Shown here: positions 18,213 through 36,576 of the stretch, one piece after another | Position numbering within the stretch: position 1 is the first letter of the stretch | Layout: each line of letters starts with the position of its first letter | NCBI GenBank assembly: GCA_028282005.1 | Contig: JANQIV010000151.1 | Span: 1-46,522 of the forward strand | From: Melioribacteraceae bacterium | Lineage (GTDB): Bacteria; Bacteroidota; Ignavibacteria; Ignavibacteriales; Melioribacteraceae | Direction: 5' to 3' | Length of the DNA stretch: 46,522 nucleotides | Position numbers and translations under genes: made by a program | Notes under the pieces: model-generated | The model's database searches: none | The model's input: the letters and a program-made list of their open reading frames with translations, nothing else | Told to the model about the DNA's origin: nothing

Positions 18213-18473
18213 ATAAAAATAGTTTGTAAGTGTATATTTAAAAGGAAGATGGCGGCTCAATCTATTCGCAGCCCAGCCACAACCTGCAAACAATTTCACC
18301 GCCACAATTTTGAAAGGAGTAATATTTTCTAAAGGGTGTCTATCATAATTTACTATATAGGCTGCACATTACGTGCCAAAAAAGAATCCCCTTTATAAGT
18401 CATTTTCGCAATAAATAAAGAACTAAAAATTTGTTGATTGTATCAATTTGAAACTCAATCCTAAAAAAGAACA

Positions 18474-18498
18474 ATGGGGATACAATTTGTATCCCCAT
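18474..18498 (-). terminator. Intrinsic terminator of the thioester protein gene
   Basis: ATGGGGATACAA and TTGTATCCCCAT form a perfect 12-bp stem around a single base, followed on the minus strand by TGTTCTTTTTT. It begins 8 nt after the stop codon. Confidence 0.85.
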
Positions 18499-18506
18499 CA
18501 ATTTAA

Positions 18507-27238: not shown

Positions 27239-27646
27239 TTACGGTAACTTCGATTTCACCAAATTAAATAATAACACTCCAACCACAGCTCCAACAAAAG
27301 TTGCGATTGCAGCAAACTCACCTGCTCCAAGTTGAGCAAAAATTGGCCCCGGACAAGCACCGGTTATTGCCCACCCGATTCCAAAAAGTATTCCACCGAT
27401 TACAGTACCTTTGTTTAAGTCTTTACCTGAGTATACTAGGCTTTCGTTTGAAATACTTTTTACTTTCAATTTCTTCAATAACTGAACTGCGATAATTCCA
27501 GTAATAACCGCGGTGCCAATTATCAAATACATGTATGGTTCTTCAAAACGAAACATTTTTTGAATTCTGAACCAACTTATAACTTCTGACTCTGTAAGAA
27601 TTATTCCAAATATGCTTCCCAAAACTATTGATACGATATTATTCAT
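27239..27646 (-). CDS. YeeE/YedE family half-transporter (C-terminal half, DUF6691-like)
   Basis: 135 residues with four hydrophobic helices and the conserved GWAITGACPGPIFAQLGAG motif, whose Cys98 lies in the second half of TsuA/YeeE-type thiosulfate carriers. In full-length members both halves are fused; here the other half is the next gene upstream (27661-28140), 14 nt away. It probably forms a heterodimeric channel for reduced sulfur. Convergent with the histidine kinase, with a 4-nt gap. Confidence 0.87.
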   Translation of the reverse strand: MNNIVSIVLGSIFGIILTESEVISWFRIQKMFRFEEPYMYLIIGTAVITGIIAVQLLKKLKVKSISNESLVYSGKDLNKGTVIGGILFGIGWAITGACPGPIFAQLGAGEFAAIATFVGAVVGVLLFNLVKSKLP

Positions 27647-27660
27647 TTCATTTTTTTCAG

Positions 27661-28140
27661 TTAATTGAAAACATAATAATTAAAAAAAGTAAAAATAAGT
27701 CCGCCAACAAAGAAAGCTATTGTAGCAAACAAACTAGATTTTTGCAGCATTGATAAACCGCTAATTGAGTGGCCTGAAGTACAGCCGTTTGCATACCTTG
27801 TCCCAAAGCCAACTAGAATTCCGCCAATGAAAAGTTTTATTAATCCTGCTAAACTGTAATAATCATCCGGAAGAAATTGAGCATTTTCTTGGGAAAGAAA
27901 TTGTGTGGAAATTACGGCTCCGAGCACAATTCCGATTACGAAATAAAACTTCCATTTATGTTCTTTAAGATCGTAACCAAGAATTTTTGTCTTATTTTTA
28001 GGGAGAACTATTGAGCAGATATGAATCAAAGAAGAGGACAGCCCAAATATTTTATTGCCAACTAAAAGAATGGTTGGCACAAAAAGTCCGATAAGCAAAC
28101 CATAAACTAGCCAATCAAGATTGTCAAAAATAACATCCAT
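27661..28140 (-). CDS. YeeE/YedE family half-transporter (N-terminal half)
   Basis: 159 residues with four hydrophobic segments and the signature GFGTRYANGCTSGHSISGLS (Cys120). In TsuA this Cys is one of those that pass sulfur from thiosulfate across the membrane. It overlaps the OsmC gene by one base and precedes the other YedE half, so these three, with MetZ just upstream, form one transcription unit. Import of reduced sulfur for assimilation or removal is a reasonable inference. Confidence 0.87.
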   Translation of the reverse strand: MDVIFDNLDWLVYGLLIGLFVPTILLVGNKIFGLSSSLIHICSIVLPKNKTKILGYDLKEHKWKFYFVIGIVLGAVISTQFLSQENAQFLPDDYYSLAGLIKLFIGGILVGFGTRYANGCTSGHSISGLSMLQKSSLFATIAFFVGGLIFTFFNYYVFN

Positions 28141-28568
28141 TATGCACCATCATTTTCGCTGATTTCAAAAGAGTATTTTATTTCAACAGTCTTTTCAATT
28201 ATAGCTGCTACAGAACAGTATTTTTCCATTGATAGATTAACCGCACGTTCAACTTTTGAATGATCTAATTTACCCGTTAGTTTGAAAACTACATTTATAT
28301 ATTCAAACAAGGAAGGAACTTTATCTTTTTCTCTTTCAGCATCAATTTCAATTTGGAAATCATCAATTTGTTGTTTTTGTTTTTTTAGGATACTGATTAT
28401 ATCAATAGCGCTACAGCCTCCAATTCCCATGAGCAATAACTCCATTGGCCTTGCACCTTGATTGTGTCCGCCAATACTTTCTGCGGCATCAATGTTTACC
28501 GGGACATCCGAACTACCTTTTGCCCGGAAATGAAAATCATTATCAACTCTATTTAATTCAATTTTCAT
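28140..28568 (-). CDS. OsmC family peroxide/persulfide-type reductase
   Basis: 142 residues with the OsmC fold and both redox cysteines: Cys52 in GIGGCSAIDI and Cys118 in MEKYCSVAAI. The GGHNQGARPMELLLMGI turn places it among the YhfA-like branch rather than OsmC or Ohr proper. Family members reduce organic peroxides or protect against reactive sulfur species. Its position between MetZ and the YedE pair favours a role in sulfur chemistry. The gap to MetZ is 8 nt; the overlap with the next gene is 1 nt. Confidence 0.87.
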   Translation of the reverse strand: MKIELNRVDNDFHFRAKGSSDVPVNIDAAESIGGHNQGARPMELLLMGIGGCSAIDIISILKKQKQQIDDFQIEIDAEREKDKVPSLFEYINVVFKLTGKLDHSKVERAVNLSMEKYCSVAAIIEKTVEIKYSFEISENDGA

Positions 28569-28576
28569 CAGTTCTC

Positions 28577-29743
28577 CTATTTTGAATTTTCAAGCGCTTG
28601 AAGAATGTCTTTATGAACTTCATCAACATTTTCTAACCCAACAGAGACACGAAGAAGTCCGGGATAAATACTTACTTTCTCTCTTTCTCCGTCAGTAAGT
28701 TTTGAGTGAGTTGTAGATGCCGGGTGTGTAACGATAGTACGAGTATCACCAAGATTCGCAGTAATAGTTAGCATTTTTAAAGAATCAATAAATTTTTGTG
28801 CTCGTTCGTATCCGCCTTTAACAATAAAAGTTATAATGCCTCCGCCTAGCTTCATTTGTTTTTTAGCAAGCTCGTACTGAGGATGAGTCTCCAAAAATGG
28901 GTACTTTACAAATTTTATTTCCGGATTTCCGTTTAAGAGATTCGCAAGTTTGAATGCATTTTCGCAATGCTTCTCCATTCTAACAGCAAGTGTTTCCAAA
29001 CTTTTTGAGAGAACCCATGCGTTAAAAGGCGACATGGATGGGCCTGTTTGTCTCGCGAAAAATCTTATCTCTTGAATCAGATCAGCTTTCCCAACAATCA
29101 CACCGCCGATTACTCGTCCTTGTCCGTCAATAAATTTTGTTGCAGAGTGAGTTATTAAATCAGCACCATAGTCTGCCGGATTTTGTAAATACGGAGTTGC
29201 AAAACAATTGTCCACATTCAAAATTAGGTTATGTTTTTTCTTTAATTCGCAAACCCATTCTAAGTCAATAATTTCTAGCCCTGGATTTGAAGGAGTTTCA
29301 ATAAAAATCATCTTTGTATTTTCTTTGATATTTTTTTCCCATTCCTCAGGAGTACTCGCATCTACATAAGTGTAATCAATTCCCCATTTGGGCAGAATCT
29401 TTGTCAAAATTTGATGTGATGAACCAAACAACGAACGTGAAGCAAGAACATGATCTCCGGAAGAAAGCAAGGCAGCAAAACCCGCAAAGACTGCAGCCAT
29501 TCCTGATGCAAATGCAAAGCCATCTTCCGCATTTTCTAAAGTAGCAATTTTTTCAACAAACTCTGATGTATTTGGGTTTGAAAATCTTGAATATATATTT
29601 CCGTCAACCTCATCTGCGAACAAAGCTCTCCCGTGCTCTGCATTTTCAAAGGTAAAACTTGATGTTAAAAATAGTGGAACTGAGTGTTCTCTGAATTGTG
29701 ATTTGTCTGTTTGTATTCTAACTGATTTAGTTTCTTTATCCAT
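28577..29743 (-). CDS. metZ: O-succinylhomoserine sulfhydrylase / trans-sulfuration enzyme
   Basis: 388 residues of the Cys/Met metabolism PLP family. The cofactor lysine is Lys203 in HSATKFIDGQGR, and the Asp in NVDNCFATP is Asp178. The GQGR motif after the lysine distinguishes MetZ-type sulfhydrylases from most cystathionine gamma-synthases. It would make homocysteine from an activated homoserine and sulfide. A terminator-like hairpin lies only 25 nt upstream of its ATG, which suggests that transcription into it is regulated. Being in a sulfide/persulfide gene run, it may consume sulfide. The subfamily assignment is fairly sure, the exact substrate less so. Confidence 0.85.
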   Translation of the reverse strand: MDKETKSVRIQTDKSQFREHSVPLFLTSSFTFENAEHGRALFADEVDGNIYSRFSNPNTSEFVEKIATLENAEDGFAFASGMAAVFAGFAALLSSGDHVLASRSLFGSSHQILTKILPKWGIDYTYVDASTPEEWEKNIKENTKMIFIETPSNPGLEIIDLEWVCELKKKHNLILNVDNCFATPYLQNPADYGADLITHSATKFIDGQGRVIGGVIVGKADLIQEIRFFARQTGPSMSPFNAWVLSKSLETLAVRMEKHCENAFKLANLLNGNPEIKFVKYPFLETHPQYELAKKQMKLGGGIITFIVKGGYERAQKFIDSLKMLTITANLGDTRTIVTHPASTTHSKLTDGEREKVSIYPGLLRVSVGLENVDEVHKDILQALENSK

Positions 29744-29768
29744 TATTGAATCCTATTGTTTAATAAAA

Positions 29769-29796
29769 AAGTCTTTCTCCTGCTGGAAAAAGACTT
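29769..29796 (-). terminator. Terminator/attenuator hairpin in the metZ leader
   Basis: On the minus strand AAGTCTTTTTCC-AGCA-GGAGAAAGACTT forms a 12-bp stem with one mismatch and is followed by TTTTTTATTA. It ends 25 nt before the metZ start codon, too little for a separate promoter with leader, which implies an attenuation or readthrough switch. Confidence 0.7.
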
Positions 29797-29909
29797 TCTG
29801 AATTTGTTCACGGAAATAAGAATTATTTTATAAATATGCAATAAATTTATCGTTAACTTTTTAATACATGGATGAAACTAAAATTTATTAGAATATATTT
29901 TCAATAATT

Positions 29910-30095
29910 CTAATTTGAAATTCCAATTTTCTTCAAGATGTCATCCATTAAACACCATTTTGTAAGGGATGACTGCAATAAATTTATTCCCACAAATGCT
30001 GTAAATAAAAACCAATATGGACTTATAAAATATCCCAGTGCTATGCTAGCCAGAACAAAAGTTCCTGCAATTGCTCTAATTATTCTTTCTCTCAT
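29910..30095 (-). CDS. DUF2892 small membrane protein
   Basis: 61 residues: MRERIIRAIAGTFVLASIAL, a second helix and CLMDDILKKIGI at the end. This is the DUF2892 (YgaP-type transmembrane) family. In YgaP the same domain follows a rhodanese that carries persulfide sulfur; here the rhodanese part is absent. It stands between the PII-like gene and metZ, so a role with sulfur handling is suggested by family and context. The Cys in CLMDD is conserved in many members. Confidence 0.85.
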   Translation of the reverse strand: MRERIIRAIAGTFVLASIALGYFISPYWFLFTAFVGINLLQSSLTKWCLMDDILKKIGISN

Positions 30096-30143
30096 TTTAT
30101 ACCTCTTTTTTATGTAACGCAGATTTTAAATCTGCCTACTGTT

Positions 30144-30452
30144 TTAAATAAAATATTTTTCTACGGCTAATTGAAAAACTCTAATTGGATTGTTGCATTG
30201 ACAATCCTTGGAAAACTCTTTAATTGCTTGAACTAATTGGTCAGCGGTTACATCACTCATAAAAGTGAAAAACAGTTTTCCTTCCATAGCATCAAGAGTA
30301 TTTCCAAACCAGTTTTCACTTTCATCTGTATTTTCAAATAGTTTGAAATTATTCACGTCGGTTTCACTATATGACGGCACTTTATTTTCCTTGAAAATTT
30401 TACGAAGTTGTTCAGCATATTCTTCAATTGTTATTACTACAAGCAGTTTCAT
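30144..30452 (-). CDS. PII-like / DUF3240-like small protein in the RND operon
   Basis: 102 residues. The predicted strand-helix pattern (MKLLVVITIEEYAEQLRKIF, LFFTFMSDVTADQLVQAIKE) fits a ferredoxin-like, PII-type fold. Similar small proteins lie next to heavy-metal RND exporters. A CxC pair (DCQCNN) near residue 84 could bind metal or be modified by sulfur. It overlaps the RND gene by one base. The family assignment is moderate; it may regulate the exporter. Confidence 0.55.
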   Translation of the reverse strand: MKLLVVITIEEYAEQLRKIFKENKVPSYSETDVNNFKLFENTDESENWFGNTLDAMEGKLFFTFMSDVTADQLVQAIKEFSKDCQCNNPIRVFQLAVEKYFI

Positions 30453-33400
30453 TATTTGGCCTCCTTATTTTCGTATTTCTTTCTTTCAGTCATGTAATAA
30501 ATCAATGGAACAATTAACAGAGTTAATGCAGTTGATGCGATCGATCCGCCCATCAATGAAATTGCAAGTCCTTGAAAAATTGGATCGAGTAAAATTACAA
30601 ATGCGCCAATTACAACTGTGCCGGCGGTTAATAAAATAGGGGTAGTACGAACAGCACCAGCCTCAATAACTGCTTGTTTAATTGGGATTCCTTCTTTTAG
30701 TCTTAAGTCGATAAAGTCGATTAGCAGTACAGAGTTACGAACCATAATTCCGGCAAGTGCAATCATACCTATCATTGATGTAGCAGTGAAGAAGGCATCG
30801 AAGATTAAATGACCGACAAGTATCCCAACTAATGATAACGGGATTGCAACCATCATTACAATAGGTACCCTGAATGACTGGAACCATCCGATTATCAGCA
30901 TATAAATAATTACAAGTACTACTGCAAACGCTGCTCCCAAATCTCTAAATACTTCGTAAGTAATTTGCCATTCACCATCCCACTTCATTGTAATTTCCTC
31001 TTCTAAAAATGGTTGATGCGAATAAAGGGTTTTCATTTCAGTTCGATTAGCTTCGTTCATTTCAGCTATCTTTTCGTCGATATCCAAAATTGCATATACA
31101 GGACTTTCTAATTTACCGGCAACATCTGCAGTAATGTAAACTACTCTCTGCTGATTTTTACGGTAGATATTTTTATCCTGCAATTGCTCTTTAATAGTTA
31201 CTAATTCTGAAATTGGAATCATATTTCCGGTTTGTGACATTACAGCGATGTTTTTCAAATCTTCAATTGATGATCTTTCTTCTTCGGGCAGATTTAAGAA
31301 AATAGAAACCGGCTCTAATTCTTCCGGCTGGTAAATTGAAGAGGCTTGAATTCCATTTAGTGAAACAGCCACAGCTTGCACAACCTGCTGAGATGAAACT
31401 CCTGCCAGCATTGCTTTTTCTTTGTTTACTTCAAATTTGTATTCTATTTGATCATCTTCAACTAGCCAATCAACATCAACAACACCTTCAGTGTTTTCAA
31501 AAACTTCTTTGATTTCTTTTGCAGTTTCAATTTGCTTTTTATAATCCGGTCCGTAAATCTCAGCAACCAATGTTGATAGTACCGGTGGGCCAGGAGGCAC
31601 TTCAGCTATTTTTATATTTGCATTAAATTTATCTGCTATGGCTTGTAAAGGTTCTCGAACTCTTTTTGCGATGTCATGACTTTGTTCGCTTCTCTCGCTT
31701 TTTCCTAAAAGATTTACTTGAATGTCTGCAACGTTTGAACCTTTGCGTAAATCGTAGTGTCTTACTAATCCGTTAAAGTTTATTGGCGCTGCTGTGCCGG
31801 AGTAAATTTGATAGTTAGTTACTTCCGGTTGCGTTCTTAAATATGAAGCCAATTCTTTCGCAACAACATTTGTTCTTTCGAGTGTTGTGCCTTCAGGCAT
31901 GTCGATGATAACCTGGAATTCATTTTTGTTATCAAACGGAAGCATCTTTACAGCTACTAGTTTGAAATAAACCAACGACATTGAAGCTAGCAAGAGAAGT
32001 GTCACACCACCGATGAACAACCATCTGTATAAACTGTTATTTATTACCGGACGCATTGTTCTTTCATAAGCCTTGTAAATAAAGGTCTCTTTTAGATCGT
32101 ACTTCTTTTCGCCTTCTTTGTTTTTGGGATCATGCTTCAAAAACCTGTATGCGAGCCATGGCGTGATTATCAATGCGACAATCAATGAAAAGATCATTGC
32201 CAAAGAAGCCCCAATAGGCATTGGACTCATGTAAGGTCCCATCAATCCGGAAACAAAAGCCATAGGCAGTACGGAAGCGATAACAGTAAATGTCGCAAGA
32301 ATTGTTGGATTACCTACTTCGTTTATTGAGTTGATTGCTGCCTGCATAAACGGCAGTCTTTTCATTTTGAAATGACGGTGCATGTTTTCCGCAATAATGA
32401 TAGAATCGTCCACCACTATACCCGTCACAAACACAAGTGCAAAAAGGGTGATACGGTTTAGCGTGTAATCAAACATGTAATAAACAAAAAGAGTTAAAGC
32501 AAAAGTGATCGGCACAGAAGCAAAAACTACAAGTCCGCCTCGCCAGCCCATAGCAAGTGTAACGATTATAGTTACAGCGATAATTGCACCGAATAAGTGT
32601 TTTAATAATTCGCTTACTTTTTCAGAAGCTGTTTCACCGTAATTTCGTGTTATCTCAACATTTACGTCTGACGGGATTAAAACACCTTTTAGTTCTTCAG
32701 TTTTTGAGATGGCTAATTCAGCGATCTGCATTGCATCTGTTCCTTTTCTTTTTGAAACAGATATTGTAACTGCCGGATAATCTTTCACAATCAGTTCATT
32801 ATTTTGATTTCCAATACCTACTCCGTAACTCACATAATCTTTAGCTTCTTCAGGCCCATCTAAAATTTCGGCTACATTTTTTAAGTAAACCGGACTGCCA
32901 CCAAATACGCCGATTACTAAATTTTCAACATCTTCTTTTGATTCAAAAAAGTTTCCTGTCTCAACTAAATACTCTGTATCCCTTTGGCTAAACTTACCTG
33001 CGCTCGATTGTTGATTTGATCCTTGCAGTGTTTGAATTAAATAAAGAGGATCAATCGAGTAACCTTTCATTTTATTTTTGTCTAATTCAACTCTAATCTG
33101 TCTGCTTCTTCCACCGATTAATTTTGTATCCGCAACATCAGTTATCTTTTTGATTTCATTATTTAGTTCGGCAGCAATTCTTCTTAATTGAAAATCGTCA
33201 TAGTTTTCGCTCCAAAGTGTTAAAGCCAGAATCGGAACGTCGTCAATTGTTTTTGATTTTATAAACGGGAAAGAAACGTTGCGCGGAAATTTATCCATGT
33301 TGCGCATAATTTCATTGTAAAGTTTCACAAGACTTTCTTCCTGGTTTTCGCCAACATAGTATCGTACTATCAACATTGCCATTTCATTCATTGAAGTTGA

Positions 33401-33658
33401 GTAAACATATTCAACGCCGTCGATGTTGGAGATTATTTTTTCCAGCGGAATAGAGATTCTTTTTTCAACTTCTTCCGGGCTTGCTCCATGATACTGAACA
33501 AAAATATTTGCAATCGGCACACTTATTTGAGGCTCTTCTTCACGTGGAGTTAAGTAAGTACTGTAAACTCCAATCACCAACGCTGCGATCATTATCAGAG
33601 GAGTAAGCTTTGAGTTTATAAATGTTTGTGCAATACTTCCGGCTATACCTGCTTTCAT
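30452..33658 (-). CDS. RND efflux transporter permease
   Basis: 1068 residues with the full RND architecture: twelve transmembrane helices in two halves and two large periplasmic loops. The proton-relay pair is Asp417/Asp418 in VVDDSIIIAENM on helix 4, as in the HAE (AcrB-like) branch; the CusA-like heavy-metal branch has a different helix here, so a metal substrate is not shown by this motif. The N-terminus MKAGIAGSIAQTFINSKLTP is typical of a Bacteroidetes/Epsilonproteobacteria subgroup. It overlaps the adaptor gene by 4 nt (ATGA). The substrate is not known. Confidence 0.93.
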   Translation of the reverse strand: MKAGIAGSIAQTFINSKLTPLIMIAALVIGVYSTYLTPREEEPQISVPIANIFVQYHGASPEEVEKRISIPLEKIISNIDGVEYVYSTSMNEMAMLIVRYYVGENQEESLVKLYNEIMRNMDKFPRNVSFPFIKSKTIDDVPILALTLWSENYDDFQLRRIAAELNNEIKKITDVADTKLIGGRSRQIRVELDKNKMKGYSIDPLYLIQTLQGSNQQSSAGKFSQRDTEYLVETGNFFESKEDVENLVIGVFGGSPVYLKNVAEILDGPEEAKDYVSYGVGIGNQNNELIVKDYPAVTISVSKRKGTDAMQIAELAISKTEELKGVLIPSDVNVEITRNYGETASEKVSELLKHLFGAIIAVTIIVTLAMGWRGGLVVFASVPITFALTLFVYYMFDYTLNRITLFALVFVTGIVVDDSIIIAENMHRHFKMKRLPFMQAAINSINEVGNPTILATFTVIASVLPMAFVSGLMGPYMSPMPIGASLAMIFSLIVALIITPWLAYRFLKHDPKNKEGEKKYDLKETFIYKAYERTMRPVINNSLYRWLFIGGVTLLLLASMSLVYFKLVAVKMLPFDNKNEFQVIIDMPEGTTLERTNVVAKELASYLRTQPEVTNYQIYSGTAAPINFNGLVRHYDLRKGSNVADIQVNLLGKSERSEQSHDIAKRVREPLQAIADKFNANIKIAEVPPGPPVLSTLVAEIYGPDYKKQIETAKEIKEVFENTEGVVDVDWLVEDDQIEYKFEVNKEKAMLAGVSSQQVVQAVAVSLNGIQASSIYQPEELEPVSIFLNLPEEERSSIEDLKNIAVMSQTGNMIPISELVTIKEQLQDKNIYRKNQQRVVYITADVAGKLESPVYAILDIDEKIAEMNEANRTEMKTLYSHQPFLEEEITMKWDGEWQITYEVFRDLGAAFAVVLVIIYMLIIGWFQSFRVPIVMMVAIPLSLVGILVGHLIFDAFFTATSMIGMIALAGIMVRNSVLLIDFIDLRLKEGIPIKQAVIEAGAVRTTPILLTAGTVVIGAFVILLDPIFQGLAISLMGGSIASTALTLLIVPLIYYMTERKKYENKEAK

Positions 33659-34725
33659 AATTGCACCTCTACTTTTTGACCTTCTCTGATGTTTTCGCTA
33701 ACTGCAATTATAGTTTCACCAAACCCTAACCCGGACAATACTTCGACGCCTTCACTATTTGATTTTCCAACTCTTACCCATCTCAACATTACTTCGCTGT
33801 TTTGATTGACTGTGTAAACACCTTTGAGCTGTCCTCTTTCAATTAAATAACTTTTTGGAATTACTACTGATTCCTTTTTGCCTTTTTCTAAAATCACATT
33901 CGCGTACATGCCTGACTTTATTTCAAAATTACTATTGTCAACTTTTACAAGTAGAGTAAATTGCCTGCTTGCCGGATTTGCACCTGCATCAATTTGAATT
34001 ACTGTTCCTTCAAACACTCCATTAGGAATTGCATCAACAATTACTTTTACTTTGTCATTTTTACTGAAAAGTTTTATTTCGCTTTCTGGCACTGATGCTC
34101 TAACTTTTACTGCACTCAAGTTTTCAACTGTCAATAAAGGCATTCCCGGGTTAGCCATATCGCCGGTTTGAACGAATTTCTTTGTAACGTATCCTGTAAA
34201 AGGTGATTTTATTTCAGCGTAAGTCAATGTGTTTTCGATTTCGTTTTTCATTTCTTCAACTGCGTTTAACTTTGCTTTTACCATTTTGTAGCCGGAAGTA
34301 ACATCATCCATTTCCTTCTGCGTAGCGCTTCCTTTGTCAAATAAGTTTTTGATTCTGTCATAATTCTTTTTAGTGTTTGTGTAAGCCGCCCTTGCCTCGA
34401 CATAGCCAGCTTCAATCTGTGCTTTCTTTGCAAGCAGATCTTTGTTATCTATTTTAATTATTGTTTGTCCTTTTGAAACCTTGTCGCCTTCTTCAAAAGG
34501 AAGATTCGCAACTCTGCCCATCAACTTTGTACTAAGCGTTACTCTTCTTTCACCTTCAACATTTCCTGCAAAAGAATAAGTTTGCGCTGTTTGTTTTTGC
34601 TCGACTTTATAACCCTCTACTTTAACTGCAGTTCTGCTGTCATCATTGCTTTCATCCGAACCGCAACCAAAAAATAAAACAGTAAATAAGATTAGTGTTA
34701 CCATAGTTGTTAATTGTTTTTTCAT
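33655..34725 (-). CDS. RND efflux periplasmic adaptor (MFP)
   Basis: About 356 residues from the ATG at 34725, which has GGAG six bases upstream; a start 12 bases earlier (34737) is also open. The N-terminus ends in a lipobox (LFFGC), so the adaptor is a lipoprotein. The barrel-sandwich hybrid is split by an alpha hairpin (SKGQTIIKIDNKDLLAKKAQ; KSPFTGYVTKKFVQTGDMAN), followed by the beta-barrel and membrane-proximal domains. It links the permease to TolC. Adjacent genes overlap or are within 25 nt. Confidence 0.92.
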   Translation of the reverse strand: MKKQLTTMVTLILFTVLFFGCGSDESNDDSRTAVKVEGYKVEQKQTAQTYSFAGNVEGERRVTLSTKLMGRVANLPFEEGDKVSKGQTIIKIDNKDLLAKKAQIEAGYVEARAAYTNTKKNYDRIKNLFDKGSATQKEMDDVTSGYKMVKAKLNAVEEMKNEIENTLTYAEIKSPFTGYVTKKFVQTGDMANPGMPLLTVENLSAVKVRASVPESEIKLFSKNDKVKVIVDAIPNGVFEGTVIQIDAGANPASRQFTLLVKVDNSNFEIKSGMYANVILEKGKKESVVIPKSYLIERGQLKGVYTVNQNSEVMLRWVRVGKSNSEGVEVLSGLGFGETIIAVSENIREGQKVEVQL

Positions 34726-34748
34726 TTTGTTCTCCATTTTATAAACTT

Positions 34749-36080
34749 TTAGTCCATTGTTAAATTTTGTTCTAACAGTAATTCTAAATGAAAGACGGAT
34801 ACATTGTAACCATAGACTGCATTCAAATGATTTAACGACGACTCAAACTGCTTAGCTTCTGCGGTCAATAAATCTGAGGTTCTCTCTAAGCCCTCTTCGT
34901 ATCTGTCTTTTATAATTTTTAAACTTTCTTTTGATTGTTCTTTAGCTTTGTCTGCAAGCTCAACTGTTTGCTCCATTGTTTTTAAATTTCTCATTGCGGA
35001 TTCAATTTCAATTTTATTTTTATCTGCTATTTTGTTGTATTGAATTTTTGCGTTGTCCAAATCAGCATTTGATTTTTGTATTTCAGCAACATTTTTAAAT
35101 CCGTTAAAGATATTCCATTGAAGATTCAACCCGATCATCCAACTGTCTGCGTTGCTCCCGAACAACTCACTGTCGTTGTATTCGAATGAACCAAATGCGT
35201 TTAATCTTGGTAGGAATTTGAATTTATTCATAGTGCTCATTTTTTCTAAAGAGCTGATTCTGTATTTCATCGCGAGCATGTCTGATCTTTTATCATTCAC
35301 TTCATTTATATTTAAGCCAACTTCTCCGACAGAAACTTTTGATAAATTATCTGTTGGTTTTATCAATCCGTCTTTTTCAACACCCAATAAAAATTTCAAA
35401 TTATCATTAGCTGTTTTATAATTGTTCTCTGCTTCTAGCAATTTTTTCTTAACGTCATTCAACATTACATCGACCATAAGTAAATCTGATTTGTTGATTA
35501 TGCCTTCATCATAAAAATCTTTTGAAGTGGAATAATGCTTTTGAACTGCTTCTAGCGATTTGTTAATAACATTAATACTTTTTTGAGCGAGAATTAGTTG
35601 ATAGTAATTTTGCTTAATCATAAAAACTACATATTCTTTGGTGCGCTTTAATTTATTTTCCATTGCACTTAAACCGTCTGCAGCGGCGGCTCTGCCGAAA
35701 AATCCGTCAACATTTATCAACGGCTGCGTCACTTCAAATTTTGTAGTAAAATTTTCAATTTCCGGCGGATCGTTTAATAAAGTGGGATTAAAATCAGCTT
35801 GAGTTACAATCTCCTGCTTTAACTTAAATCCGAATGAACTAAGCGGATCGTTTGTTTTAACAAATGTTTCGGATAAAGTAATGCTTGGCAGAAATACAGA
35901 AAGCGAGCTGTTATAATCGCCGGCCATTTTATCTACTTCTGTCTGTGCTAATTTAATTTCATGATTATTCTCTTTTGCTAATTGGAGGGCTTCGTCAATC
36001 GATAATTCAATAACATTTTCCTGCGCATGAATTATCTGACCGGCGAAGAACAATAGAATTAAAAGAATTTTGTTTTTCAT
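34749..36080 (-). CDS. TolC family outer-membrane channel
   Basis: 443 residues with a signal peptide (1-19) and two OEP repeats. Each shows the long helices and the short beta pieces: SIDEALQLAKENNHEIKLAQ, then SIINK-type turns, and NLQWNIFNGFKNVAEIQKSN. It is the outer-membrane exit duct for the RND pump. The gene lies next to the ArsR regulator, with an operator-like dyad in the 71-nt gap between them. Confidence 0.93.
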   Translation of the reverse strand: MKNKILLILLFFAGQIIHAQENVIELSIDEALQLAKENNHEIKLAQTEVDKMAGDYNSSLSVFLPSITLSETFVKTNDPLSSFGFKLKQEIVTQADFNPTLLNDPPEIENFTTKFEVTQPLINVDGFFGRAAAADGLSAMENKLKRTKEYVVFMIKQNYYQLILAQKSINVINKSLEAVQKHYSTSKDFYDEGIINKSDLLMVDVMLNDVKKKLLEAENNYKTANDNLKFLLGVEKDGLIKPTDNLSKVSVGEVGLNINEVNDKRSDMLAMKYRISSLEKMSTMNKFKFLPRLNAFGSFEYNDSELFGSNADSWMIGLNLQWNIFNGFKNVAEIQKSNADLDNAKIQYNKIADKNKIEIESAMRNLKTMEQTVELADKAKEQSKESLKIIKDRYEEGLERTSDLLTAEAKQFESSLNHLNAVYGYNVSVFHLELLLEQNLTMD

Positions 36081-36096
36081 TTTTGCTCCGTTGTTT

Positions 36097-36136
36097 TATA
36101 ATTTTTAATTATAGACATATATAGATGTTTATATGT
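36097..36136. promoter_or_regulatory. ArsR-type operator dyads upstream of tolC
   Basis: Two dyads are adjacent: TATAATTTTTAATTATA (perfect, 36097-36113) and ACATATA-N8-TATATGT (36115-36136). AT-rich imperfect dyads like these are usual for ArsR/SqrR-type repressors. They sit in the 71-nt gap between the arsR stop and the tolC start. Confidence 0.55.
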
Positions 36137-36151
36137 ATTGTATAAATTTTT

Positions 36152-36457
36152 TTATATTTCGCAGCACTCGATAACGCAATCGATTACCTGGTTTAATTTG
36201 TCTTTCTTCATAAAATAATAAGTGTTTTTACCGTCGCGGGTGTAATCGAGAACATCGCGGTCTTTTAGGATTCTTAAATGGTGAGAAACAACTGCTTGCT
36301 CTATGTCAAGATTGCTGAATATTTCGCTAACCGACAATTTTTTACCTTTATCCAAAAGACACATAATTTTTATTCTTATCGGATGTGCGATTGCTTTGAG
36401 AATCTCGGTGGAGGTTCTCAATTTACTTTCGTCCAAATCTTTTACTTTTGTTTTCAT
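36152..36457 (-). CDS. ArsR family regulator with SqrR/BigR-like cysteines
   Basis: 101 residues from ATG 36457, behind GAGAAGGG (an upstream TTG is less likely). The winged helix is complete: ILKAIAHPIRIKIMCLLDKG, SVSEIFSNLDIEQAVVSHHL and the wing DVLDYTRDGKNTYYF. There is no ELCVCDL metal motif. Cys33 (KIMCLL) and the C-terminal cluster Cys94/Cys98/Cys99 line up with the Cys pair of the persulfide sensors SqrR, BigR and YgaV. It leads the co-directional run of TolC, MFP, RND and sulfur genes and is divergent from the SCO/PCu(A)C genes, and probably controls at least the former. Confidence 0.85.
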   Translation of the reverse strand: MKTKVKDLDESKLRTSTEILKAIAHPIRIKIMCLLDKGKKLSVSEIFSNLDIEQAVVSHHLRILKDRDVLDYTRDGKNTYYFMKKDKLNQVIDCVIECCEI

Positions 36458-36576
36458 TTCCCTTCTCAAAATTATTTACAAATGGTCTGATTCAATTTTT
36501 CAAAAAAGGATTCAAACTCGCGCTTTGTTGAACTCAAAGATCATAATTTTGTTATTTTGCATATTCAAAAATCTGG

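Follow-up and report, generated by a model that had tools for sequence, protein, structure and literature searches.

Ribosome-mediated attenuators of the trp, his and ilv type combine a leader ORF containing regulatory codons with mutually exclusive 2:3 and 3:4 pairings, in which segments 2 and 4 are alike. Cysteine leader ORFs were reportedly the subject of a mycobacterial study by Canestrari in 2020. A general account of ribosome-mediated amino-acid attenuators is given in PMC1183508. For cysteine, the passages of PMC8632094 on the uORFC-8-2 motif place it before cysS in Rhodobacterales and predict Cys-tRNA attenuation, and those of PMC1262725 on actinobacteria describe cysteine leader ORFs before sulfur genes, without conserved terminator hairpins. 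RNA control has also been described for metZ itself, since PMC9373788, where it deals with Sinorhizobium, reports a SAM-II riboswitch before metZ and predicts premature termination for S. meliloti metZ. Clues to leader-peptide attenuation in a flavobacterium are presented in parts of PMC9723704. Our literature search, conducted with most subscription journals outside its scope, showed, among the papers listed, none on a Cys attenuator of metZ and none on attenuators in Ignavibacteria.

Here we describe a hairpin ahead of metZ in a 46,522-nt stretch of DNA (the window) from a draft assembly of 271 contigs, together with the metZ leaders of related genomes. Ten relatives resemble the trp/his/ilv type in their regulatory codons, their exclusive 2:3/3:4 pairing and the likeness of segment 2 to segment 4. 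They differ from it in that the predicted signal is cysteine and the target is the metZ operon, and the window differs further in having neither regulatory codons nor segment 2. The relatives' leaders share with uORFC-8-2, as portrayed in the motif description of PMC8632094, a Cys-codon leader ORF followed by an intrinsic terminator, but that motif belongs to another gene and phylum and has tandem Cys codons at positions 14-15, whereas the window has the terminator only. Compared with the actinobacterial leaders, as far as these are set out in PMC1262725, Cys codons again lie near the end of the leader ORF with sulfur genes downstream, but the relatives also have an antiterminator segment, as well as the intrinsic terminator that is missing from the actinobacterial leaders. 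SAM-II at Sinorhizobium metZ, in the portrayal of PMC9373788, and SAM-I at Cyclobacteriaceae-type metZ loci likewise place RNA control ahead of metZ; these, however, are ligand riboswitches, and neither the window nor any of the 10 attenuated relatives gave a SAM match.

The hairpin ahead of metZ

The features of the locus, in the order of transcription, are as follows.

29910-36469, minus strand: efflux gene row, which includes an ArsR-type regulator and ends in a YgaP-like TM gene
29910..30095, minus strand: YgaP-like TM (DUF2892-type) gene, last in that row and next upstream of the terminator
29800..29909, minus strand: 110 nt from the upstream stop codon to the hairpin; the relatives' site of the leader ORF and segment 2, neither found here
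29766..29799, minus strand: predicted terminator hairpin with a 15-bp stem (segments 3 and 4) and an AGCA loop (folding and our own scan; counterpart in 10 relatives)
29765..29770, minus strand: T6 run, partly within the stem (sequence)
29744..29764, minus strand: spacer from T6 to the metZ start codon, 21 nt (sequence)
28577..29743, minus strand: metZ, a PLP enzyme of Cys/Met metabolism; among NCBIfam models, O-succinylhomoserine sulfhydrylase fits best, slightly below its cut-off (profile match)
28140..28568, minus strand: OsmC-family gene (profile match)
27661..28140, minus strand: YeeE/YedE-type sulfur transport half (profile match)
27239..27646, minus strand: second sulfur transport half, DUF6691 / Sulf_transp (profile match)

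The efflux row comprises an ArsR-type regulator, an outer membrane efflux protein, an HlyD/RND-type adaptor, a 1068-aa membrane protein whose sequence and setting suggest an RND permease, a 102-aa protein that matched no family, and the YgaP-like TM protein.

The hairpin reads AGAAAGTCTTTTTCC-AGCA-GGAGAAAGACTTTTT on the minus strand (29799-29766), and the metZ ATG begins at 29743. Its fold reached -17.9 kcal/mol over 61 nt (z -5.3), which none of 200 shuffles equalled; for the 177-nt leader as a whole z was -4.3, and again 0 of 200 shuffles matched the fold. Our own terminator scan (stem of at least 11 bp with 3 or more G-C pairs, and a T-rich end), applied to both strands of the 46.5-kb window, gave two strong terminators, at 29765-29799 and 18472-18500, both on the minus strand, and none in each of six shuffled sets. 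The second of these lies directly past the stop of a 1642-aa gene and is ordinary in appearance. A simple consensus scanner did not return the metZ hairpin, probably because the stem uses up most of the T run; between 25000 and 36000 it gave 6 terminator-like sites, with 6.7 expected. The terminator core, AAAGTCTTT-N3..14-AAAGACTTTTT, occurs a single time in the 4.09-Mb assembly, ahead of metZ. With a stable 15-bp stem followed by a U run (T6 in the DNA), the hairpin has both elements of an intrinsic terminator and is predicted to be a true one. A hairpin with T6 on the metZ coding strand had been pointed out in an earlier note on this DNA, and this is confirmed here; the distance of 25 nt to metZ given there is corrected to the 21 nt of 29764-29744.

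Rfam returned zero families at threshold in the window, and its list at E<=5 over the leader held weak sub-threshold matches only. SAM-I, SAM-II and T-box gave no covariance-model match in the window and were absent from the leader list at E<=5, in agreement with the previous failure to recognise a SAM, SAM-II or T-box leader. The earlier note also held that no promoter can follow the hairpin. This is too strong, as only the start site must follow and promoter boxes may overlap the hairpin; no convincing promoter was found. The promoter scan made use of a TTTG box. Its -7 consensus was that given in the promoter passages of PMC9723704. For a TTTG/TAnnTTTG-type promoter in the window, the spacer scan scored no higher than shuffles (p 0.97); p<=0.02 was reached in just 2 of the 10 relatives, and we claim none. 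These values also speak against a metZ transcript that begins a few nucleotides before the hairpin, which would then be a 5'-end stem stabilising the mRNA. A TTGCAT-N-TTATTTCC stretch just upstream, by eye like the one before the L004 and L034 leaders, would suit such a start, and we consider this explanation very improbable.

Predicted cysteine attenuators in ten relatives

MetZ was searched in overlapping sets: 79 genomes of the window's family, 164 of its order, 391 drawn evenly from the class, and 22 of f19, a second family. The strict terminator scan was applied to 33 loci and to 79 of 80 further ones, from which L109, with 41 nt between its match and a contig end, was omitted; one MetZ search had 36 matching genomes, 6 of which were given no locus. 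L006-L031, which are MetZ paralogues with 38-43% identity, were left out, and L062-L065 are repeats of L003, L041, L034 and L037. Two hairpins that the strict scan missed were recovered by eye: that of L037, which lies beyond the 140 nt scanned, and that of L004, whose stem probably uses the tail.

A MetZ match at E<=1e-110 was present in 9 of the 79 genomes of the window's family, the window's own genome counted. In five of the other eight (L003, L004, L032, L033, L034), a terminator lies directly 5' of metZ and is accompanied by a leader ORF with Cys codons; L035 shows a hairpin but no leader, L005 shows neither feature, and L036 is truncated at its start by a contig end. At E<=1e-150 the order added a single match, L041, which has no terminator and no leader and lies closely behind another reading frame. 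All five f19 matches at E<=1e-185 (L037-L040, L042) have the terminator and a Cys leader, with a terminator-to-metZ distance of 102-145 nt in L037 and L039. This arrangement was not found in L043-L061, the other class members examined. The genes downstream of metZ are common to the window and the attenuated relatives of its family.

In the ten related genomes, which come from two families, three features precede metZ: the terminator core shared with the window, a leader ORF in which 1-4 codons specify Cys, and, at the stop of that ORF, segment 2. The leader ORFs are 15-30 codons long, and their peptides are MNYYMKIIQAILNEICKCNNLNC (L003), MLKGRQNICCTNFGMWMHCICEEDL (L004), MILSLTKILFTKRRMLSCGCKILMLRE (L032), MLRSLYLSHQLYWSVSCMCKKET (L033) and MINGILNNCWCMNPF (L034) in the window's family and MPSQVNQIVSCCLKIFKPS (L037), MKSEVFNISMMCCLMLSSPS (L038), MHYAAKQNMVCHRPRRFVAGCLRIFESP (L039), MPSQINHSHSVVCRRPRRFLAGCLTIVDSP (L040) and MKSAYLHTTPCRTGPLHR (L042) in f19. 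Cys accounts for 22 of the 218 leader residues after Met1, and the Cys counts of single leaders against shuffles are modest (p 0.002-0.22). Because the leader ORFs were selected for Cys, the position of Cys is a fairer test than its count. A Cys stands 7-8 residues before the leader end in 10/10 leaders, which 0 of 20,000 within-peptide permutations reached; when one leader per genus is taken, this holds for 6/6, and 45 of 20,000 permutations reach it.

Segment 2 at the leader stop is similar in sequence to segment 4 (GAAAGAC-type), and its pairing with segment 3, the 5' arm of the terminator, was better than that of shuffles in all ten leaders (p 0.000-0.042). When the 3' arm was kept unpaired, the predicted fold joined segment 2 to segment 3 in nine of ten; in L004, segment 2 pairs with the leader start instead. 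MAFFT leader alignments misplace segment 2, so the 2:3 pairing was judged by per-sequence duplex energy and no covariance model was made. One pair of the terminator stem alternates between A-U (7 rows, the window among them) and G-C (4 rows). Rfam gave no family for the 10 attenuated leaders and no SAM-I, SAM-II or T-box in L003, L004, L032-L035, L037-L040 and L042.

With Cys codons at a fixed distance from the leader stop and an exclusive antiterminator segment both present, the relatives' metZ leaders are built like ribosome-mediated attenuators and are predicted to respond to the supply of Cys-tRNA, and the ribosome reading the Cys codons can be predicted as the sensor. We infer that a shortage of Cys-tRNA would hold the ribosome on the leader ORF and keep segment 2 free, which would then pair with segment 3 and let RNA polymerase continue into metZ and on to the sulfur-transport genes. 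With a ribosome at the leader stop, segment 2 would be covered and the terminator would form from segments 3 and 4.

Other leader signals were also seen. SAM-I matches (Rfam, relaxed thresholds included) were confined to L066, L068, L081 and L089. In L068 (bacterium bin.11) and L081 (uncultured Cyclobacteriaceae), 2 of 79 scanned loci, the region ~45-132 nt before metZ holds a SAM-I riboswitch and then a leader ORF ending in a Cys run (MSLRCCCCCC and ...FCGINCCCC); the terminator scan found none there, and in these two metZ may respond to SAM as well as to cysteine. In the Flavobacterium loci L124 and L128, unrelated terminator-like hairpins (AAAACCTGCAAGATT...) lie ~44-78 nt before metZ, and no Cys leader accompanies them. 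As to other amino-acid genes of the window's genome, 10 of its 11 PF00291 loci were inspected by eye and showed no Cys leader; three of these lie at most 325 nt from a contig end and have a short upstream region. At the start of contig G000:C222 (L150), a strong GC-rich hairpin with T7 stands at the contig edge a short way ahead of a PF00291 gene that by eye looks threonine-synthase-like, and this hairpin could be another leader terminator.

The window leader against the relatives' pattern

The window's terminator has the position and the core of the relatives' metZ terminators. The 110 nt before its hairpin contain zero ORFs with Cys codons, and the best duplex with the 5' arm in the place of segment 2 has only -2.3 kcal/mol, which is worse than 99.4% of shuffles (p 0.994). 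No outstanding partner of the 5' arm was found within 400 nt upstream of the hairpin. Both the Cys-codon leader ORF and the exclusive antiterminator segment are absent from the window as far as these searches go, and a working attenuation switch in its genome is not supported. The probable attenuation switch of the earlier note therefore holds as a prediction for ten relatives, which have terminator, Cys leader and antiterminator, but is not supported for the window, where neither a Cys ORF nor segment 2 was found. Likewise, the sensor that had been left unnamed finds a candidate in the relatives, in a ribosome on Cys codons; the ORFs before the window hairpin have no such codons.

A weak partner of the 3' arm lies just upstream of the window hairpin (-7.9 kcal/mol; p 0.045 in 60 nt, at least 0.105 in longer stretches), and control other than Cys attenuation might conceivably act through it. 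This partner would fit a switch that is still functional through an unrecognised sensor, be it an RNA-binding protein, a distant antiterminator, or a TTG/GTG-started frame that passes through the hairpin and ends at the metZ start. Indeed, a frame of 22-32 codons crosses the hairpin to a TAATG overlap. However, such a frame was present in 305 of 1000 shuffles and is not counted as evidence, and the lack of an outstanding 5'-arm partner within 400 nt also argues against a switch of this kind, which we regard as distinctly unlikely.

The missing leader and antiterminator, together with the location of the hairpin 110 nt past a co-directional stop codon, would also suit a hairpin that has nothing to do with attenuation and simply ends the efflux/DUF2892 operon as its 3' terminator, with a metZ promoter that overlaps or follows the hairpin. 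In three relatives, however, the efflux-DUF2892 genes run within ~20 nt into another gene, cyclase-like by eye, with no terminator between. The match of core and position to the relatives' metZ terminators includes L004, where the nearest large upstream reading frame points away from metZ, so that the hairpin is not needed by the upstream gene. As the promoter scan gave nothing outstanding either, we think an ordinary 3' terminator unlikely.

The MetZ tree (30 rows) places the window in a well-supported clade of 15 rows that contains all 10 attenuated rows, branching within the clade being not settled. Since the efflux row meets a different gene in the three relatives, the efflux-metZ junction looks newer, and it seems special to the window's lineage. 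In G084, one of those three genomes, metZ and its Cys attenuator are on a separate contig (L032, L144). From these few genomes we infer loss of the module rather than its original absence, the leader having probably been lost together with or after the efflux-metZ junction. L005, L035 and L041 are also without a leader, so that more than one loss, or parallel gain, is required.

A putative relic between two operons

The explanation we favour, and hold to be somewhat probable, is that the window hairpin is a relic terminator of an ancestral cysteine-leader attenuator, which has lost its leader and would now stand sensorless between two operons. We read it as a relic because the core is unique in the genome before metZ and common to 10 relatives, while the leader and segment 2 are missing. 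The predicted terminator, its counterparts, the relatives' leaders with their pairing and the absence of leader parts from the window are all read from the sequences themselves. Segments 3 and 4 would have been kept, with the leader ORF and segment 2 gone and the efflux operon directly upstream. Such a hairpin would be unregulated and probably a partial terminator, ending most efflux-operon transcripts. Basal metZ transcription would pass it, from the efflux operon or some other promoter, and the terminator would lower transcription into metZ at any cysteine level.

A wider version can be offered only tentatively. A Cys-tRNA attenuator may ancestrally have governed a metZ-osmC-yeeE/yedE operon in the class; here the sensor would have been lost and the terminator kept, leaving the operon dependent on readthrough from the efflux operon, which is possibly responsive to sulfur or metal stress.

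In the relatives, a complete predicted trp-type attenuator would tie the metZ sulfur operon of a little-studied Bacteroidota branch to cysteine supply. The ten predicted switches and the one putative relic would form a natural before-and-after set, which lets one ask what role a sensorless terminator plays.
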